A stretch of DNA of 64,000 bases from a virus. Location of the stretch: positions 35,055 to 99,054 of the IMG/VR virus record IMGVR_UViG_3300017991_000075, one strand, 5' to 3'. A program made the position numbers and the translations under genes. Within the stretch, counting starts at the first letter, position 1; each line of letters starts with the position of its first letter. Under the pieces are notes generated by a model. That model did no database searches, had not been told where the DNA came from, and worked only from the letters and a program-made list of their open reading frames with translations. Of this stretch, positions 3,751 to 62,012 are shown piece by piece.

Positions 3751-4535
3751 GATACGACTTCATCATCGGTATAGACCCCGGCTATGCGACACTCGGCCTC
3801 GCCATAATCGACCTGCGTAACGGTCGTCCTCAATTCGTTCACATGAGTTCAGCTCTTACCGTAAAAACGGTAAAGGCCCCCACCTCTAAAGAAAAGAAAC
3901 AACTCAAGATCAAATTTCCGATTGAAGAATTTCAAGAACGCGAAGAGACCTTTCAACGAATCAATTTACTCGCTGACTATGTTCGAGGGGCTATACGCCA
4001 CGTATGTAACCCAATATTCAAACTGAATGCTCTTATAGTCATTGAAGAATGGACCGCCAGTCCGAACGCTAGGTACGTAAAAACGATCTACTATCGTGGT
4101 GCGGCTGATGCGGCTGTTCGCCAGGTAGTCAACATGTACGGCGCACAGACTCTAACGGTTGACAATATCTGGGTGAATCAGTTCTCCAACGTACAGGGCA
4201 AGAAAACAATCGACAAAGACAATCCGACACCTATGGAGATCCTGTTGTGCATACAAATGTTGTGTCCTTGGCTCAACGGATTTGACGTACAACAATGGCT
4301 CGAACATCGTGGCACCGCGCATACATTGAATGGTTCAAGACAGCAAAAGGGGGTTCCCGAAAAGGCCAAACTACACTATGCTGATGCTGCGGTGATGGCC
4401 ACCATGGGAGTCCTGGCAATCGATCCAGATCTCGCAGGCCAACGCCCGCCAAATCAGATGGAGAAACTATCGTACCTGTGGGAGCGCCTGCGTGAAGTCC
4501 AAGACCATGATCTTCGACAACGAAGCGGCAACTGA
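3747..4535 (+). CDS. RuvC-like Holliday junction resolvase
   Basis: The N-terminus, IIGIDPGYATLGLAIID, is the first strand of the RNase H-like RuvC fold, with D10 as the first catalytic acid. VIEEW (E100/E101) supplies the second, and HYADAA (D213) fits the third near the C-terminus. At 262 residues it is longer than E. coli RuvC (about 173), with an insertion of charged residues around 40-70. The family cleaves four-way junctions; in phages it clears branches before packaging. The start overlaps the previous stop (ATGA), and the 3' end overlaps the sigma-like gene by 44 nt. Confidence 0.85.
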   Translation: MRYDFIIGIDPGYATLGLAIIDLRNGRPQFVHMSSALTVKTVKAPTSKEKKQLKIKFPIEEFQEREETFQRINLLADYVRGAIRHVCNPIFKLNALIVIEEWTASPNARYVKTIYYRGAADAAVRQVVNMYGAQTLTVDNIWVNQFSNVQGKKTIDKDNPTPMEILLCIQMLCPWLNGFDVQQWLEHRGTAHTLNGSRQQKGVPEKAKLHYADAAVMATMGVLAIDPDLAGQRPPNQMEKLSYLWERLREVQDHDLRQRSGN

Positions 4536-5391
4536 GCTGGTACTCCAGATCAAAGAGCGTAATGCTCAAATCGCTTCCTTCTCAAAACAACGTGATCAAG
4601 CACCCCATATCCTGCAGGAGCTGCACGGTGAATTCTACGACCACTGTCAGCCGTTCCTGAGATCTGCTGTCCGTGAATTCGCTAAGGGTGCCAACATTCA
4701 GGATCACGAAGATCTTGCGCAGGATGCCTTCCTGAAGATCCTTCGAATGATCGATCGCTACAGTCCGAAAAAGGGTCGCCTCCACAACTGGATGACCAAG
4801 ATCACCAGAAACTTGTGCTGGGATTGGCTCCGGAAGAAAAAACCGCAGCTCCTGGCAGAGGGACTGCCCAAGGACACTCTCTCGATCGAACTAAAACTCG
4901 ACGGCGAGTATAACTTTCCTCTGAACTTCGATCGCAAACCGAGTCCGGAGAACTTGATCGAGGATCGCAAGAAAGTCGATAACTACCTTGACAAAGAAGA
5001 CTACGATATCATCAAAGATTCGTTTCCGTTCTACGTCAGCGATCGCCTGATGTTCGATCTACTAACCACCGTCGAACGACACCGCTTCACAGCCTGCCCG
5101 GCCTGCGTCGAAGACGTGCTTGCGCTACTTGAAGAAGAAGAAATCGATTACACCGAGTATGGCAAGCCCGTAGAGATGGTGAACGCGACCATCATCCTGC
5201 TACGAGGGTTATTGATGCGAGTGATCAATCGAGCTGACATCATCAAGATGGCTCTGATCAAAAACCCGGAATTCAACGAACTCCGGGTCTTGACGAGATT
5301 CCTGGGTCTGGAAACAACGGAAAAACTGATCCTGCTACTGGGGGGACTCAGGATACAACTCCCAGCCCCAAGACAATTCTACCGAGATTAG
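4492..5391 (+). CDS. Phage-encoded sigma-70 family factor (region 2) with an unusual C-terminus
   Basis: Residues 72-115 match sigma-70 region 2: EDLAQDAFLKILRMIDRY followed by the NWMTKITRNLCWDWLRKKK helix that binds core polymerase and the -10 element. No standard region 4 is visible. The last 35 residues (FLGLETTEKLILLLGGLRIQLP) instead resemble the small GG..I.IP element seen in Mor-family activators. The GTG at 4492 has GGAG 7 nt upstream and is preferred over ATG 4507, which lacks a site. It is the last gene of the + strand block. It could direct late transcription, possibly through the repeated CGTAGGTAT motif. Region 2 identity is firm; the target is inferred. Confidence 0.85.
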   Translation: MKSKTMIFDNEAATELVLQIKERNAQIASFSKQRDQAPHILQELHGEFYDHCQPFLRSAVREFAKGANIQDHEDLAQDAFLKILRMIDRYSPKKGRLHNWMTKITRNLCWDWLRKKKPQLLAEGLPKDTLSIELKLDGEYNFPLNFDRKPSPENLIEDRKKVDNYLDKEDYDIIKDSFPFYVSDRLMFDLLTTVERHRFTACPACVEDVLALLEEEEIDYTEYGKPVEMVNATIILLRGLLMRVINRADIIKMALIKNPEFNELRVLTRFLGLETTEKLILLLGGLRIQLPAPRQFYRD

Positions 5392-49547: not shown

Positions 49548-49575
49548 ATACTATCCCGGTATGAAATCGTGTCAA
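49548..49575 (-). promoter_or_regulatory. Sigma70-type promoter (TTGACA-16-TAGTAT)
   Basis: The - strand holds TTGACA (49575-49570), a 16-nt spacer and TAGTAT (49553-49548), 21 nt before the start at 49527. Its first 15 bases, TTGACACGATTTCAT, are identical to the promoter at 50938-50966. Confidence 0.75.
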
Positions 49576-49580
49576 TTGAA

Positions 49581-49614
49581 AAAGGAAACCCGCCCCTGGC
49601 TAAGAAAGGGCGGG
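49581..49614 (-). terminator. Terminator directly before the promoter at 49548
   Basis: CCCGCCC (49589-49595) pairs with GGGCGGG (49608-49614) over a 12-nt loop, followed on the - strand by TTTCCTTTTTC. It isolates the downstream operon from upstream transcription. Confidence 0.8.
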
Positions 49615-49674
49615 CACCTCGGTTCTTACTCAAGCGCATAGGAGAACGTCATGAGCACGTACAGTCTAGCAAGC

Positions 49675-50822: not shown

Positions 50823-50927
50823 CGGCGCAAGAAGGATTCGAACCCTCGACCTCCCAGGCATCTGTCATTCCCGTAGCATGCATAGGTCCTGACGCCCAGG
50901 CGCTCTCCCAGACTGAGCTATTGCGCC
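50823..50927 (-). tRNA. tRNA-like gene with about 31 extra nt in the anticodon loop
   Basis: The acceptor stem GGCGCAA/TTGCGCC, D arm GCTC..GAGC, variable region AGGTC and T arm GAGGGTTCGAATCCTTC are all intact. The anticodon stem CCTGG pairs with CTGGG (two G-U pairs), but the loop is 38 nt rather than 7. If the insert sits at the usual 37/38 intron position, the anticodon would be GUC (Asp), with C instead of U at position 33. GCGTC/GATGC can extend the stem to 10 bp. No CCA is encoded. It may be an interrupted tRNA, a pseudo-tRNA or a tRNA-like RNA. Confidence 0.7.
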
Positions 50928-50937
50928 GAATGCAAGT

Positions 50938-50966
50938 ATCCTATTACCGACATGAAATCGTGTCAA
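50938..50966 (-). promoter_or_regulatory. Sigma70-type promoter before the tRNA-like gene
   Basis: TTGACA (50966-50961), a 17-nt spacer and TAGGAT (50943-50938) lie just upstream of the tRNA-like gene. Transcription would start near the acceptor stem. Confidence 0.7.
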
Positions 50967-50968
50967 CC

Positions 50969-50998
50969 AAAAAGCCCTCCTACACTGGAGGGCTTTTT
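50969..50998 (-). terminator. Bidirectional-looking terminator before the tRNA promoter
   Basis: AAAAAGCCCTCC (50969-50980) and GGAGGGCTTTTT (50987-50998) form a 12-bp stem with a 6-nt loop; T runs exist on both strands. It ends the gene at 51018, 20 nt away. Confidence 0.92.
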
Positions 50999-51017
50999 GA
51001 TGAGCTGATCGGGCTGC

Positions 51018-52814: not shown

Positions 52815-53564
52815 CTAAAGCTGCTCGTATAGATCTCCAAAGATTACCGGCAGATACCCATGCATGATCTTCAGAGCTTTCCGTGCAATCCCTTTGATCT
52901 GCCACTGCGCTTTCGGGTTCAAAGCACGCTCCTTGAATACGTGCCTCCACATCCGCAGATTGAACGTCGTAACTACTTCCGTCTTCGATGCCCCCGGTAA
53001 CACCAGGCGTGCATCTTCTGGTTTCAAACCATGATTACGCAACCACAGGTATGTCCAGTAAGCATCGAAATTGATGCCAAGAAATGCGTTTGCTGTTGCG
53101 ATCTCTTGAATCAGCCAACCTTCATCTGCCACAAATTTATCCAGCAGGAACGGACCCTCGCCTGTTTGCTTAGTAAAATAAATCCGCTTGTCATCATGCC
53201 GCTCGTACTTACCTGGTAGAAGCCTGGTATCCGGCGGCGCTATGATCTTCATAGCCTGAACTTTGCCGTAATCACAATAGCGCTGTGACTCTTGTGAAAA
53301 AGCTGATATACGGTGCCGTACGAGTTGATGTGACATTGTGCGATCACCGACAAAACGTCCTGTGATGACACAATGCTCGATCACAGATTCGTGCCCGCTC
53401 TTGATGATCTTCCTTATGAAGTCGTCAGCGGAATCTTCATGCATAGCTTTTTCTGATTTGTAGCAAGTCCTCCCGGCTTTCTCTAACAGCCTCATGTAGT
53501 ACGGAAAGACTTCCGGATCTGTCATCAACTCGAAGTCCGGTTCTACGACTATCAACGTGGTCAT
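52815..53564 (-). CDS. thyX: Flavin-dependent thymidylate synthase ThyX
   Basis: A 249-residue protein with the ThyX signature RHRISAFSQES (RHR at 83-85, then seven residues, then Ser 93) and SGHESVIEH upstream (about 56-64). The family makes dTMP from dUMP using FAD and methylene-tetrahydrofolate without DHFR. The C-terminal ends typical of ThyX (FNLRMWRHVFKERA) are present. The start at 53564 follows AAAAGGAGAACAATC. It supplies thymidylate for phage replication and overlaps the DUF3310-like gene (ATGA). Confidence 0.95.
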   Translation of the reverse strand: MTTLIVVEPDFELMTDPEVFPYYMRLLEKAGRTCYKSEKAMHEDSADDFIRKIIKSGHESVIEHCVITGRFVGDRTMSHQLVRHRISAFSQESQRYCDYGKVQAMKIIAPPDTRLLPGKYERHDDKRIYFTKQTGEGPFLLDKFVADEGWLIQEIATANAFLGINFDAYWTYLWLRNHGLKPEDARLVLPGASKTEVVTTFNLRMWRHVFKERALNPKAQWQIKGIARKALKIMHGYLPVIFGDLYEQL

Positions 53565-53867: not shown

Positions 53868-53914
53868 TGAAAAAGCGTGGCACGGGATCGTACCACGCTT
53901 TGATGATCTGTCAA
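53868..53914 (-). promoter_or_regulatory. Overlapping terminator-promoter cassette C
   Basis: TTGACA (53914-53909), a 16-nt spacer and TACGAT (53892-53887). The -10 lies in the loop of a hairpin AAAGCGTGG (53872-53880) / CCACGCTTT (53893-53901) followed on the - strand by TTTC. The same DNA can end the upstream KKKV-gene message and start the DUF3310-ThyX message. Confidence 0.75.
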
Positions 53915-53922
53915 TAGGTCGC

Positions 53923-54204
53923 CTAGCGTTTCTTCTTGCCGACCTTCTTTTTGCCGACCTTTTTCTTAGCTACTTTCTTCTTAGCTACTTTCTTCTTAGC
54001 TACTTTCTTCTTGGCTGACTTGACCACGGCCTTGCGCGGGCCTCCAACGTTATCCTTGGTCACAAACTCTTTACCGGCAGCTCCAGCCGCAACGATATGG
54101 CCCGGACCCCAATTACGCTGAACCCACTTGTCACCCATCCACTCATATGCTGTTACACCTGGTGGCCATTCTTCTATCGAAGGTGGTGCTGGTCTTTCTG
54201 GCAT
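53923..54204 (-). CDS. Lysine-rich protein with KKKV(A/G) repeats, histone-like tail
   Basis: A 93-residue protein starting at 54204 (MPERPAPP) after CAAGGAGAACAC. The N-terminus (IEEWPPGVTAYEWMGDKWVQRNWGP) is a short Trp-rich fold. The last 35 residues are repeats of KKKVA/KKKVG. Such tails resemble histone H1-like bacterial proteins and bind DNA or RNA without sequence preference. It is transcribed from cassette D. Confidence 0.75.
   Translation of the reverse strand: MPERPAPPSIEEWPPGVTAYEWMGDKWVQRNWGPGHIVAAGAAGKEFVTKDNVGGPRKAVVKSAKKKVAKKKVAKKKVAKKKVGKKKVGKKKR
53933..54012 (-). repeat. 15-bp tandem repeats encoding KKKV(A/G)
   Basis: About five in-phase 15-bp units (each - strand unit near AAGAAAGTAGCTAAG, with two later units changed to GTCGGC) encode the lysine tail of the gene 53923-54204. 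Three units are almost identical, so the copy number could vary between relatives. Confidence 0.8.
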
Positions 54205-54223
54205 GTGTTCTCCTTGTTCAAAA

Positions 54224-54269
54224 CAAAAAACTCCCACGGCGATGATACCGTGGGAGCTGATGTGGTCAA
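54224..54269 (-). promoter_or_regulatory. Overlapping terminator-promoter cassette D
   Basis: TTGACC (54269-54264), a 16-nt spacer and TATCAT (54247-54242). The -10 lies in the loop of the 9-bp hairpin CTCCCACGG (54231-54239) / CCGTGGGAG (54248-54256), followed on the - strand by TTTTTTG. Confidence 0.8.
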
Positions 54270-54281
54270 GGTTCGCGTCAG

Positions 54282-55850
54282 TTACTTGTCTTTAGCAGGA
54301 GGCATATCGGATTTCTCTGGTGAGAGCACTTGGATATCAAGGATCTGGTACATGCGCCTGGAGTTATCCTGGATCTGTCGAAGCATCTCATATTGAGCCT
54401 CATCAAACGCAAAGATCTTCGCATCCTTCCAGTCTGCGAACAGATCGTCATCAGAGTAATACCCGATGCGTTCTTGTTCGGTGTCCTGTATCTGCAGGAT
54501 GAATCCACTGTGCATGTACCCCTTGCCATCAACACTCATTGCCTGTAGAGCTTCAGCCGATGTCTTCTTAGGCGGCACAGGCTCGCCACATGTGGCTGCA
54601 GCAACTCGATCGACATCGAATGGGCGACCGCCAAGAGGATGATCCTTGTACTTCCTGGCGTATTCAACATCTACCGTAAGCACTAACGCTGTTGAACTCG
54701 GATGTTTTTCCCGCCATGACATGACGACATCATGGGCGTCGTTTGCGTCGGAGAATCTTGTGGCCTTGTCCAGATGTTCGCTCCAATTGTACGTAGGATG
54801 AGCACCTTTCGGATGTATCGTAGACACATAATAATCGATCTTGTCTTCATGCAGACGCCGTACCACGTACAGGCGTTCGGGGAGCTTTGTAGCTACAGCA
54901 ACTCGATTAGCATCAGAGATTGCACGCCCGTCATCTTCCATAGGAACACCCTCCAAAGGAAGCATCTTAGTAGGAGGACCAAGGATCTCATTCTCTTTGT
55001 CCACAGCAACCATCATGACGTGATAAGAAACTCCACAACCTTCTGACTTGAATCTCCATCGATCTCTGGTGTGCACAGCATCCTCAATTTTATCAAACAA
55101 CGATGCTTCAACCCAATGTTCAACCCATTTGTCATTTTCATCATACATCAGTTTTAGATACACGGGTTTCTTCAGCACCGGCTCAGCATCTTTCAACGTT
55201 CTGGCAATCACAAAATTCACAGTAGCATTCTTCGGCCGAAGAATGGTATCGCTGAAATGGACTTCGACAGTACAAGCAACAACATCCACGATGTCATCAT
55301 TCAACAGCTCGAACTTACCATCATCGATATCGTTGTTCACACGAGCCATCAAGCTACCGGCCCTCCTGTAGGAATCAAACGGTGTAGCATGCCTCCAATG
55401 TTCTTCCCATTCGATGCCACCATGATCACGCCCGTGAGAGATATTGGCGAAGAACGTCTTTTGTTCCCCACTCTTGAGAGTCTGCACAAGCATCACCAAC
55501 CAGGCTGACGGTGGTACTGTGTGATCAGACTCTCTTCGTAACAACTCTTGTTCCTCGATAAGACCAGAAAGCGCCTTGTTAGTGATCTCACGAATCTCTG
55601 TGACGGCTGTAGACAGCTCAGGGATAGAAGGACTAGAAGAATGATCCCACGCAATACACCGAACAACTCTTTCAGCGAGTATCTGCAACGGTGACAGTAC
55701 CCCCTGCAACGCCCTCATCGCAGGACGCATATTCTTCTCATCGTAAAGATCGATCTCCTCTTCTCGCACGTCGTACGTACGGATCTTCGCCCGTACACGG
55801 TCTTGTGGTAACGCACCAAGTTTAGCCTGCATTGTTTGTGGGTTCTGCAT
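54282..55850 (-). CDS. Unknown protein with four repeated EH/A-F modules
   Basis: A 522-residue protein starting at 55850 (MQNPQTMQ) after ATAGGAGAACGAAC. Residues 1-110 are helical. Four related modules follow (about 116-172, 232-270, 325-390 and 447-508), each with a strand pair and then WxEHWxxAxxFDxxxxA or close variants, such as EWEEHWRHATPFDSYRRA and NWSEHLDKATRFSDANDA. Similar single modules occur in nearby small proteins. No enzyme motif is seen. It could be a multivalent binding protein acting on a host target. Confidence 0.7.
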   Translation of the reverse strand: MQNPQTMQAKLGALPQDRVRAKIRTYDVREEEIDLYDEKNMRPAMRALQGVLSPLQILAERVVRCIAWDHSSSPSIPELSTAVTEIREITNKALSGLIEEQELLRRESDHTVPPSAWLVMLVQTLKSGEQKTFFANISHGRDHGGIEWEEHWRHATPFDSYRRAGSLMARVNNDIDDGKFELLNDDIVDVVACTVEVHFSDTILRPKNATVNFVIARTLKDAEPVLKKPVYLKLMYDENDKWVEHWVEASLFDKIEDAVHTRDRWRFKSEGCGVSYHVMMVAVDKENEILGPPTKMLPLEGVPMEDDGRAISDANRVAVATKLPERLYVVRRLHEDKIDYYVSTIHPKGAHPTYNWSEHLDKATRFSDANDAHDVVMSWREKHPSSTALVLTVDVEYARKYKDHPLGGRPFDVDRVAAATCGEPVPPKKTSAEALQAMSVDGKGYMHSGFILQIQDTEQERIGYYSDDDLFADWKDAKIFAFDEAQYEMLRQIQDNSRRMYQILDIQVLSPEKSDMPPAKDK

Positions 55851-55860
55851 GTTCGTTCTC

Positions 55861-56310
55861 CTATTCGTCGTTGAGTACAGGGATAGTCCCATTTGTGCGG
55901 GGGTTATTACAGACCATCACATCATGTACCCTATAATAACTACGACCCGTTTTTTTACGACAAGGCGCAGCACCCGCAAAATGAACAGTACCCCCTACGA
56001 TTGCAATATCGGAAGCAATAAAATAGATCATGGCATGATGAGCATACCTCGACAATCTGCATCTCTTCTTCAACTTTTTGAAAGGAATCTGAACATCGAG
56101 TTCCGGAAGCTCACAAGAGTCACCCGGTTCTAAGACAAAGAGAATCTCTTCCTTGGGAACCCTGTGAATCCTGTGAAAGCGACTCTTCTTTCTGATCTTC
56201 TTTCCCATGTCCAGAGAAAGTGTTGTCGGTGTCTCCGCAACAACGTTGGCGATTACCAAGCCAACACCGTATTTACGGACATCCTTCACCTGCCAGATAG
56301 CTACTCGCAT
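55861..56310 (-). CDS. Unknown basic protein
   Basis: A 149-residue protein starting at 56310 (MRVAIWQVKD) after ATAGGAGAACATCA. It is strand-rich with basic patches (GKKIRKKSRFHRIHRV, KLKKRCRLSRYAHH), compatible with nucleic-acid binding. It is transcribed from cassette B together with the downstream 522-residue protein, 11 nt apart. Function unknown. Confidence 0.65.
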   Translation of the reverse strand: MRVAIWQVKDVRKYGVGLVIANVVAETPTTLSLDMGKKIRKKSRFHRIHRVPKEEILFVLEPGDSCELPELDVQIPFKKLKKRCRLSRYAHHAMIYFIASDIAIVGGTVHFAGAAPCRKKTGRSYYRVHDVMVCNNPRTNGTIPVLNDE

Positions 56311-56330
56311 TGATGTTCTCCTATTCGAAA

Positions 56331-56378
56331 ATAAAAACCAGTGACACGAGATCATACCACTGGTTTGTTGTTTGTCAA
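56331..56378 (-). promoter_or_regulatory. Overlapping terminator-promoter cassette B
   Basis: TTGACA (56378-56373), a 16-nt spacer and TATGAT (56356-56351). The -10 lies in the loop of hairpin AAACCAGTG (56335-56343) / CACTGGTTT (56358-56366), followed on the - strand by TTATTTTC. Confidence 0.75.
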
Positions 56379-56393
56379 GATGGTTGTCGGACT

Positions 56394-56627
56394 CTAAGCA
56401 GATACAGCTTTTACGTTCGCTTCCGGGTTACGGGCCTTCACAACCTCGATGATCTTGTTGACTTCCTCGATGTCCGTGAACACCTGGGCATCCTGCGTGT
56501 CATCATCGGTCGTCCACCCAAATAGAATCTTCCCCTTCGAGGTCTCACCCTTCGAGTAATAATACCCTTTAGTTCCGTTCTTGAACGTCTTGAGTATCGT
56601 GTACTTCTTGACAGTTTGTTTTGCCAT
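56394..56627 (-). CDS. Small protein with one EH/A-F-type module
   Basis: A 77-residue protein starting at 56627 (MAKQTVKKYTI) after GGGGATAGTCCAG. It reads as strand, strand (GYYYSKGETSKGKILFGWT), then DAQVFTDIEEVNKIIEVVKARN, the same beta-beta-helix order as the modules in neighbouring genes. It appears to be a stand-alone form of that domain. Function unknown. Confidence 0.65.
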   Translation of the reverse strand: MAKQTVKKYTILKTFKNGTKGYYYSKGETSKGKILFGWTTDDDTQDAQVFTDIEEVNKIIEVVKARNPEANVKAVSA

Positions 56628-56670
56628 CTGGACTATCCCCTATTCCAAAAATTGACCAACGTAAGTCATC

Positions 56671-56698
56671 GGAAAAACCTGACATACTCCAAATCAGG
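56671..56698 (-). terminator. Weak terminator after the 56694-57230 gene
   Basis: CCTGA (56678-56682) and TCAGG (56694-56698) pair over an 11-nt loop, followed on the - strand by TTTTTCC. The stem is only 5 bp and overlaps the stop codon. Confidence 0.4.
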
Positions 56699-57230
56699 CA
56701 CCCTGCAATTTATTCTCCGGTGGATTACGGTACTTACCGCCGTAATGCATGTGGTACAACGAAATAATTCGCATGTCATCGTTATGCCGAGCGCAGTTGT
56801 CGATATACCACTGAGCATTTTCTTTAGTCCTGAAAAGAGGTGTACTAGGATGCATTTCCCCCTCTTTGTCAATCAGTCTAAGTGTCCTGATCGAGCCATC
56901 ATGTTTGACATAACCAACCGTAAACATCTCGTCAAGATATTCTGCAGAATTACACTCGCATCCTTCAATAAATGGTTTATCGACGAGATCTTTCACCTGT
57001 TCTTCAGACATTCCGGTATAACGGCTTTCAAAAGGAACGTTCAGAGCCGCATCAGCCTTAGTCTCCTCACCCATCTCATTCTCCTTCTCTAACAATATTT
57101 TGCACCGTTCTACGCTCATCCATAAAGATGCTGCCACGTAACTACCGTATCGAGCTTCCGTAAACTTGGCAGCCCGCGTCAGGTCGTCGATTGTATCCTG
57201 TAATGTGAATCTGGCAATAACGCCGTTCAT
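56694..57230 (-). CDS. Unknown protein with a module-like C-terminus
   Basis: A 178-residue protein. The N-terminal 50 residues are helical (LQDTIDDLTRAAKFTEARYG). The C-terminal part, GYVKHDGSIRTLRLID then TPLFRTKENAQWYIDNC, resembles the beta-beta-helix module shared with nearby genes. The start at 57230 follows GAGGTGACAC and overlaps the upstream stop (ATGA). An internal methionine near residue 53 could begin the compact domain. Confidence 0.6.
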   Translation of the reverse strand: MNGVIARFTLQDTIDDLTRAAKFTEARYGSYVAASLWMSVERCKILLEKENEMGEETKADAALNVPFESRYTGMSEEQVKDLVDKPFIEGCECNSAEYLDEMFTVGYVKHDGSIRTLRLIDKEGEMHPSTPLFRTKENAQWYIDNCARHNDDMRIISLYHMHYGGKYRNPPENKLQGA

Positions 57231-57487
57231 GTGTCACCTCGCCTGACAACTGTTCCACCAGCTACCAGAGCACGCCATTGCCACAACGTAAGACCTTTAC
57301 CTCGGTATGTATCCAAACCGCCATATTTGATGTCTCTGGAAACTTGCTTCTCCAACGTAACTTCTACCTGACACCCTCGACAAGGGTTCAACGATGTCAC
57401 CTTTACGATATCCCAAGACGCATATCTCTGCAGTTTGATAACATCACCCTTCGCCGGGTACACTAAAGGATCTCGTTCATCAGTCAT
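57227..57487 (-). CDS. Small unknown protein
   Basis: An 86-residue protein starting at 57487 (MTDERDPLV) after AAGGGAGAACGTC. It has a strand-rich barrel-like pattern (KGDVIKLQRYASWDIVKVTSL, CQVEVTLEKQV). It is the first gene after cassette A. Function unknown. Confidence 0.65.
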   Translation of the reverse strand: MTDERDPLVYPAKGDVIKLQRYASWDIVKVTSLNPCRGCQVEVTLEKQVSRDIKYGGLDTYRGKGLTLWQWRALVAGGTVVRRGDT

Positions 57488-57503
57488 GACGTTCTCCCTT
57501 CAC

Positions 57504-57547
57504 AAAAATAATCGGACCACCTTATCAGTGGTCCGATTATGTATCAA
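57504..57547 (-). promoter_or_regulatory. Overlapping terminator-promoter cassette A
   Basis: TTGATA (57547-57542) with a weak TAAGGT -10 after 17 nt lies over the 11-bp hairpin AATCGGACCAC (57510-57520) / GTGGTCCGATT (57528-57538), followed on the - strand by ATTTTTG. The terminator is strong; the promoter is the weakest of the set. Confidence 0.65.
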
Positions 57548-60327: not shown

Positions 60328-60583
60328 GCCTGATGTTCTCCCATCGCCTGTTAGGCTCTGACCAGACTGCTACCAGGCTATCTTCACAAACGGTAGTATG
60401 GCGTTTATCGCCGCTGGTCTCGACGTAGTAAAAGACCTCTCTGCTGATCTGATCCTTGCCGTGTTCCTGCAGGAAAACCTGAACGCCTCTGACACGGCCC
60501 GTGTATTTCTTGCGCCGACCACCGGCAACGTAGAATCGTACACGCTCATTGATCTCTGCATGGATCTTGATGTGCCTAAACAA
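60314..60583 (-). CDS. Small basic beta-rich protein
   Basis: An 89-residue protein. The preferred start is a TTG at 60583 with GGAGG six nt upstream; the ATG at 60610 has no site. INERVRFYVAGGRRKKYTGR and VQVFLQEHGKDQISREVFYYVE suggest a small barrel. It overlaps the XRE regulator by 8 nt. Function unknown. Confidence 0.6.
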   Translation of the reverse strand: MFRHIKIHAEINERVRFYVAGGRRKKYTGRVRGVQVFLQEHGKDQISREVFYYVETSGDKRHTTVCEDSLVAVWSEPNRRWENIRHDGR

Positions 60584-60782
60584 ACATGTCCTCCACGTAC
60601 TCATACCCAAGGAACTCAGCGAGCTTTACTGCATCGGCAATACCGGCAACGCCCTCGCCGTTCAGCCAGCGGGCGAGTTTGCCTCTGCAGACGCCGGATT
60701 GCTCTGCGAGTTCCCGGATGCTGAGACCGCTCTCATCGATGACCTTTTTCTTGAGTTTCTTGAATCGCTGTTTCTTTGTCAC
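60576..60782 (-). CDS. XRE-type helix-turn-helix regulator
   Basis: A 68-residue protein starting at a GTG (60782) preceded by AAGGAG inside the end of the upstream gene. After a Lys-rich start, SIRELAEQSGVCRGKLARWL forms a clear helix-turn-helix and AVKLAEFLGYE completes the fold. It probably represses or activates phage promoters as a dimer. A longer ATG start (60812) lacks a ribosome site. Confidence 0.75.
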   Translation of the reverse strand: MTKKQRFKKLKKKVIDESGLSIRELAEQSGVCRGKLARWLNGEGVAGIADAVKLAEFLGYEYVEDMFV

Positions 60783-61902: not shown

Positions 61903-61931
61903 AATATAGTGGCGGCACGAACTCGTGGCAA
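61903..61931 (-). promoter_or_regulatory. Sigma70-type promoter (TTGCCA-17-TATATT)
   Basis: TTGCCA (61931-61926), a 17-nt spacer and TATATT (61908-61903), 34 nt before the HD gene start. It directly follows a terminator. Confidence 0.7.
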
Positions 61932-61933
61932 TA

Positions 61934-61960
61934 GAAAAACGGCCGTCATCTCGACGGCCG
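61934..61960 (-). terminator. Terminator after the GroES-like gene
   Basis: CGGCCGTC (61940-61947) and GACGGCCG (61953-61960) form an 8-bp stem with a 5-nt loop followed on the - strand by TTTTTC. It lies 52 nt after the stop of the gene at 62013. Confidence 0.9.
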
Positions 61961-62012
61961 CCTCCCTCACCAAGTTTTCTGAACTGCCAGAAAAGTATGA
62001 AACTGCACCAGA

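Follow-up and report, generated by a model that had tools for sequence, protein, structure and literature searches.

The locus analyzed here raises the question of whether one short DNA segment can both end the transcript arriving from one operon and begin that of the next. The window (64,000 nucleotides, bases 35055-99054 of a 99,054-bp IMG/VR virus record) contains four hairpins for which the original prediction proposed this double role: each was described as a terminator with a promoter -10 element in its loop and the -35 element just ahead of its stem, so that the same ~45 bp could serve both purposes.

The phage and its four boundary hairpins

Protein matches to terminase, tape-measure, DNA polymerase, ThyX and holin identify the virus as a tailed phage. 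Close relatives were not found: searches with terminase, DNA polymerase and ThyX gave distant or single-gene matches only, the nearest known relatives of the terminase and the DNA polymerase show about 22-27% protein identity, and no similar DNA was detected for 19 kb of the phage among 50,697 phage records. The ThyX protein (52815-53564, minus strand) has relatives with 73% and 60% identity on viral contigs of 195 kb and 77 kb, respectively. The presence of such close relatives for ThyX, compared to none for terminase or DNA polymerase, suggests that nucleotide-metabolism genes have been exchanged. The ThyX neighbours L011 and L012 do not carry any composite element of the type described below.

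All four hairpins, designated A to D, were present together with their T-tails. Each is on the minus strand and is flanked by co-directional genes, and all of the genes surrounding them are also on this strand (Table 1). One gene of this region (53923-54204, minus strand) encodes a 93-aa protein with lysine-rich VAKKK repeats that make up its C-terminal third and have a likeness to nucleoid-binding tails; a tail of this kind also terminates a longer protein (L009:11473-13077).

Table 1. Coordinates of the hairpin elements, side-by-side boundaries and candidate regulator gene in the window (minus-strand features are read from the higher to the lower coordinate).
Feature	Position (strand)	Hairpin or terminator	Promoter or promoter-like match	Operator-like palindrome	Other
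Element A	53870..53914 (-)	stem 53901-53872, 13 bp, then T-tract	-35 TTGACA 53914-53909; -10 TACGAT 53892-53887; 16-bp spacer	53894-53879	
Element B	54224..54269 (-)	stem 54258-54229, 12 bp, perfect, then T-tract	-35 TTGACC 54269-54264; -10 TATCAT 54247-54242; 16-bp spacer	absent	
Element C	56330..56378 (-)	stem 56366-56335, 14 bp, then T-tract	-35 TTGACA 56378-56373; -10 TATGAT 56356-56351; 16-bp spacer	56358-56343	
Element D	57504..57547 (-)	stem 57540-57508, 14 bp, T-tract	TTGATA-17-TAAGGT		
Side-by-side boundary	49548..49615 (-)	terminator 49615-49588	TTGACA-16-TAGTAT 49575-49548	49573-49558, in spacer	
Side-by-side boundary	50938..50999 (-)	hairpin 50999-50968	TTGACA-17-TAGGAT 50966-50938	50964-50949	
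Side-by-side boundary	61903..61967 (-)	terminator 61967-61933	TTGCCA-17-TATATT 61931-61903	61929-61914	
68-aa Cro/C1-type HTH protein	60576..60782 (-)				Pfam HTH_3, E=4.3e-08; PHROG transcriptional repressor families

Read on the minus strand, A is TTGACA-gatcatcaaagcgtgg-TACGAT-cccgtgccacgcTTTTT, B is TTGACC-acatcagctcccacgg-TATCAT-cgccgtgggagTTTTTT and C is TTGACA-aacaacaaaccagtgg-TATGAT-ctcgtgtcactggTTTTT. In each of them the -35 hexamer ends 5-7 bp ahead of the stem, and the -10 hexamer falls within or beside the loop (4-6 nt). The stems (12-14 bp) contain G+C pairs and directly precede the T-tract, as expected of intrinsic terminators, and the predicted folding energy of the U-tailed hairpins is -15 to -21 kcal/mol. 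A Shine-Dalgarno sequence and a start codon follow close behind, and the co-directional genes on either side are separated, from stop codon to start codon, by 71, 77 and 83 bp at A, B and C, respectively. Hairpins placed shortly 5' of Shine-Dalgarno sequences might also represent processing signals or 5'-stabilizing structures within a longer mRNA rather than boundaries. This is very improbable, given the terminator-type U-tails directly after the stems and the consensus hexamers, whose placement would exclude the hairpin from a newly initiated RNA.

Predicted promoters nested in terminators A, B and C

The putative nested promoters were evaluated in a shuffle test (20,000 trials), in which the base pairs of the stem were permuted without loss of pairing, while loops and upstream bases were shuffled; scoring was against a sigma-70-type consensus, which may not correspond to the preferences of the phage's host. 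The score of the natural sequence was reached by 2, 9 and 2 of the 20,000 shuffles for A, B and C, respectively. These three elements have hexamers matching the TTGACA/TATAAT-like consensus at 10, 10 and 11 of 12 positions, each pair separated by 16 bp, that is, within the 16-18 bp of sigma-70-type promoters and above chance. Element D was rejected as a promoter, since only 5+3 of its 12 bases match and 1,659 of the 20,000 shuffles were as good, an ordinary chance result. The proposed combination of stop and start in the same ~45 bp is therefore retained as the best reading of A, B and C, and abandoned for D.

A simpler view is that the hairpins are ordinary terminators with fortuitous -35/-10 matches, the next gene being transcribed by readthrough or from a promoter elsewhere. 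This holds for D, and 9/12 promoter-like matches are indeed common in the region (22 observed vs 18.8 expected). As an account of A, B and C it is quite unlikely, because 10-11 of 12 positions match in these elements, always with a spacer of exactly 16 bp, a result that nearly all shuffled hairpins fail to reach. With only roughly 15-20 strong terminators in the genome, shuffle results this rare place the three hits beyond chance.

A 299-aa protein encoded elsewhere in the window (4492-5388, plus strand) has a sigma-70 region 2 domain (E=6.5e-16), while region 4 was not detected. It is a possible phage-encoded sigma factor, in which case promoter use could differ from the sigma-70-type consensus.

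An operator-like palindrome and a candidate regulator

The stems had been described as different in sequence, with architecture rather than sequence being conserved. This requires correction for A and C, whose conserved cores have GTGGTAYGATCYCGTGYCAC in common, a part of an operator-like motif. A repeat family connects the promoter spacers at 49.5, 51.0 and 61.9 kb, and alignment of the sites yielded a 16-bp palindrome, GRYAYGA-NN-TCRTRYC, with six sites, all inside promoters; one of these sites (30.9 kb of G000), in a TTGACA-16-TATCTT promoter, was outside the first matrix. This restriction of the motif to promoters also argues against fortuitous matches in A and C.

A matrix trained solely on A and C placed the spacer sites of four further promoters 3rd to 7th among ~99,000 positions. 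In the reciprocal analysis, with matrices from the spacer sites alone, C came 4th or 5th; A came 6th or 7th and was a weak site in this scoring, inside the random-genome range. The cross-trained matrices thus place one palindrome at several of the phage's promoters, as in a dispersed regulon. In A and C, the inner stem very probably serves as an operator, and each of these two elements looks like a promoter, an operator and a terminator combined in one.

The occurrence of this palindrome at other promoters could mean that the inverted repeats of A and C are merely protein-binding operators over the -10, with incidental T-tracts and no termination. We consider this unlikely, as the stems, which end at the T-tract, run well beyond the 16-bp palindrome in both directions, and B is a perfect stem with no operator. 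Furthermore, the operator-bearing promoter at 30.9 kb has a divergent upstream gene and no terminator ahead of it, as would be predicted for terminators whose role is to stop transcripts arriving from upstream.

The gene of the 68-aa Cro/C1-like protein sits downstream of the operator-bearing promoter at 61931. On the basis of its domain and position, this protein is a candidate regulator of the operator-bearing promoters, and we propose that it would be self-regulating.

Other features were observed near operator-bearing promoters. At L010:10866-11010 (G000 about 30.76-30.91 kb), a strong 19-bp terminator hairpin lies no more than about 60 nt past the minus-strand TTGACA-16-TATCTT promoter, with a second, weaker operator-like site between them; this promoter may thus give rise to a short leader or a small RNA. 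Several near-copies of a short palindrome, GTGCCAAAAATGGCACC, which could be iteron- or operator-like sites, are located at L010:11540-11675, just 3' of the gene of a small HTH_36 protein. Directly 3' of the promoter at 50966 lies a 105-nt tRNA-like gene (50823-50927, minus strand; Rfam tRNA 45.4 bits, not called by ARAGORN) with about 30 additional bases in the anticodon-arm region.

Recurrence in other viral and bacterial DNA

Public viral contigs were scanned for the pattern TTGACA (or TTGAC)-N16/N17-TATNAT-N9-16-TTTTT-N5-20-(A)GGAG, and a hairpin on the -10 was called at a score of ≥22, the scores being bimodal with the remainder at shuffle level. Such a hairpin was present in 8 of 68 distinct viral elements with a spacer of 16 and, among the matches listed, in 16 of 109 with a spacer of 17. 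Together this gives at least 24 hairpin-bearing viral elements, counted as distinct by difference in element sequence and not by phylogeny. A small but complete scan with a non-functional spacer of 21 returned 18 stretches (11 distinct), none with a hairpin. The pairing of hairpins with spacings of 16 and 17, and not 21, again speaks against chance matches.

Among consensus-like promoters at the loci sampled, a hairpin was found in 20 of 171 followed by T5, compared to 2 of 373 without T5 and 0 of 23 followed by A5; the T5 group includes sites chosen by the scan, although the hairpin played no part in that choice. This association with the T-tract is not expected of simple operators, and functional promoter spacing and T-tract dependence together argue that both roles are selected. 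Contigs L155 and L171 each contain a second element with a different stem, unselected by the scan. The claim that architecture prevails over sequence is supported, between genomes, insofar as unrelated stems recur in other viruses. Among the matches listed from bacterial contigs, 3 of 111 distinct elements (3 of 105 under stricter merging) also carried the hairpin, which indicates that the design is not limited to phages.

Nested promoters as a general trait of phage terminators were considered and rejected: 121 viral terminators away from the chosen sites showed no excess of them. The expectation that promoter matches inside phage terminators would outnumber those in shuffled hairpins is accordingly borne out, by a wide margin, for A, B and C, but not for these unselected terminators, and the nested elements represent a minority design. 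In the same 121 terminators, promoters just after the terminator were in excess and constitute the common design. With crude gene calls, the orientation of the upstream gene does not split hairpin-bearing from plain promoters. The hairpin-bearing lineage L095 had no match among isolated phages in a similarity search.

In many viral promoters (L080, L013, L035, L054 and others), the stop codon TGA of the upstream frame is the TGA of the -35 hexamer TTGACA. By crude calls, and where the upstream frame runs in the same direction, this overlap was seen in 4 of 12 promoters with the hairpin and in about 20 without it.

A stop-and-start model

Taken together, A, B and C are probably composite operon-boundary elements, in which a terminator and a promoter share ~45 bp; judging from the sequence evidence, we assign this reading a probability of about 0.7. 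A polymerase arriving from the upstream operon would transcribe the ~45 bp into the full U-tailed hairpin and undergo intrinsic termination. A new polymerase carrying a sigma-70-type factor would find a promoter with a 16-bp spacer, made up of the -35 just ahead of the stem and the -10 of the loop. Initiation ~7 nt past the -10 would fall within the 3' arm, so that the new RNA would lack the 5' arm and form no hairpin, while readthrough RNA would contain the entire hairpin (13, 12 and 14 bp in A, B and C, respectively). The same bases would therefore stop the arriving polymerase and not the new one, whose RNA, judging from the spacing, would continue to the Shine-Dalgarno sequence and the start codon about 30-45 nt on. 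Initiation at A and C would be blocked by a regulator of the phage, for which the Cro-like protein at 60.6 kb is the simplest candidate.

The gain from the overlap is likely compaction, as these boundaries occupy 71-83 bp, compared to 144 and 215 bp at the side-by-side boundaries at 61.9 and 49.5 kb, respectively. A further function is conceivable but doubtful: the terminated polymerase, still on the DNA a short distance past the nested start site, might be recaptured by the nested promoter in preference, and at A and C the regulator might both block this restart and act as a roadblock that hardens termination. If this were true, one 45-bp site would jointly set the exit from one operon and the entry into the other.

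Relation to known systems

Several known systems share part of this design. In temperate phages with dispersed operators, such as the C1 sites of P1, one motif lies over the sigma-70-type promoters of several operons. The present operator-like motif is distributed around the genome in the same way, but it is a different, symmetric 16-mer, and two of its copies are inside terminator stems. The hairpin promoters of the phage N4 virion polymerase have a 5-7 bp stem and a 3-nt loop, lack sigma-70 hexamers and are used by a phage polymerase. They resemble our elements in that a promoter is tied to a DNA inverted repeat, whereas A, B and C have stems of 12-14 bp, loops of 4-6 nt, U-tails and sigma-70 hexamers. 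Stoperators are asymmetric 13-mers in one orientation relative to transcription, mostly located off promoters, which stop polymerase via bound repressor. Here too, repressor-type sites at gene boundaries are tied to stopping transcription; however, the sites are palindromic and confined to promoters, and a U-tailed hairpin would provide the stop. Mycobacteriophage stoperators are mentioned in PMC3029335.

In Kayvirus 515A1, the early promoter p98 immediately follows the terminator t97 (PMC7698491), and this side-by-side boundary likewise places the upstream terminator and the host-type promoter of the next unit in one short gap. The present phage has this form as well, at 49.6, 51.0 and 61.9 kb; in A, B and C, by contrast, the bases of the terminator are also those of the promoter, whose -10 sits in the loop. 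Promoters near terminators, at which recycling RNA polymerase initiates (PMC11347151), are similar in that a termination site lies beside a promoter reachable by a polymerase that stays on the DNA after RNA release, but in our elements the distance between the two is effectively zero. In the literature searched, which gave partial coverage, we found no account of a recurring -10 in a terminator loop, or of a promoter, an operator and a terminator in one stem. Each component is already familiar, and the novelty of the nested design is provisional.

The rule used here, that is, a promoter at functional spacing with a hairpin on the -10 and a T-tract, cleanly splits composite elements from plain viral promoters. 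If both roles work, these elements would be very compact natural insulators, and they would provide a test bed for restart at an overlapping promoter by polymerase retained after termination.
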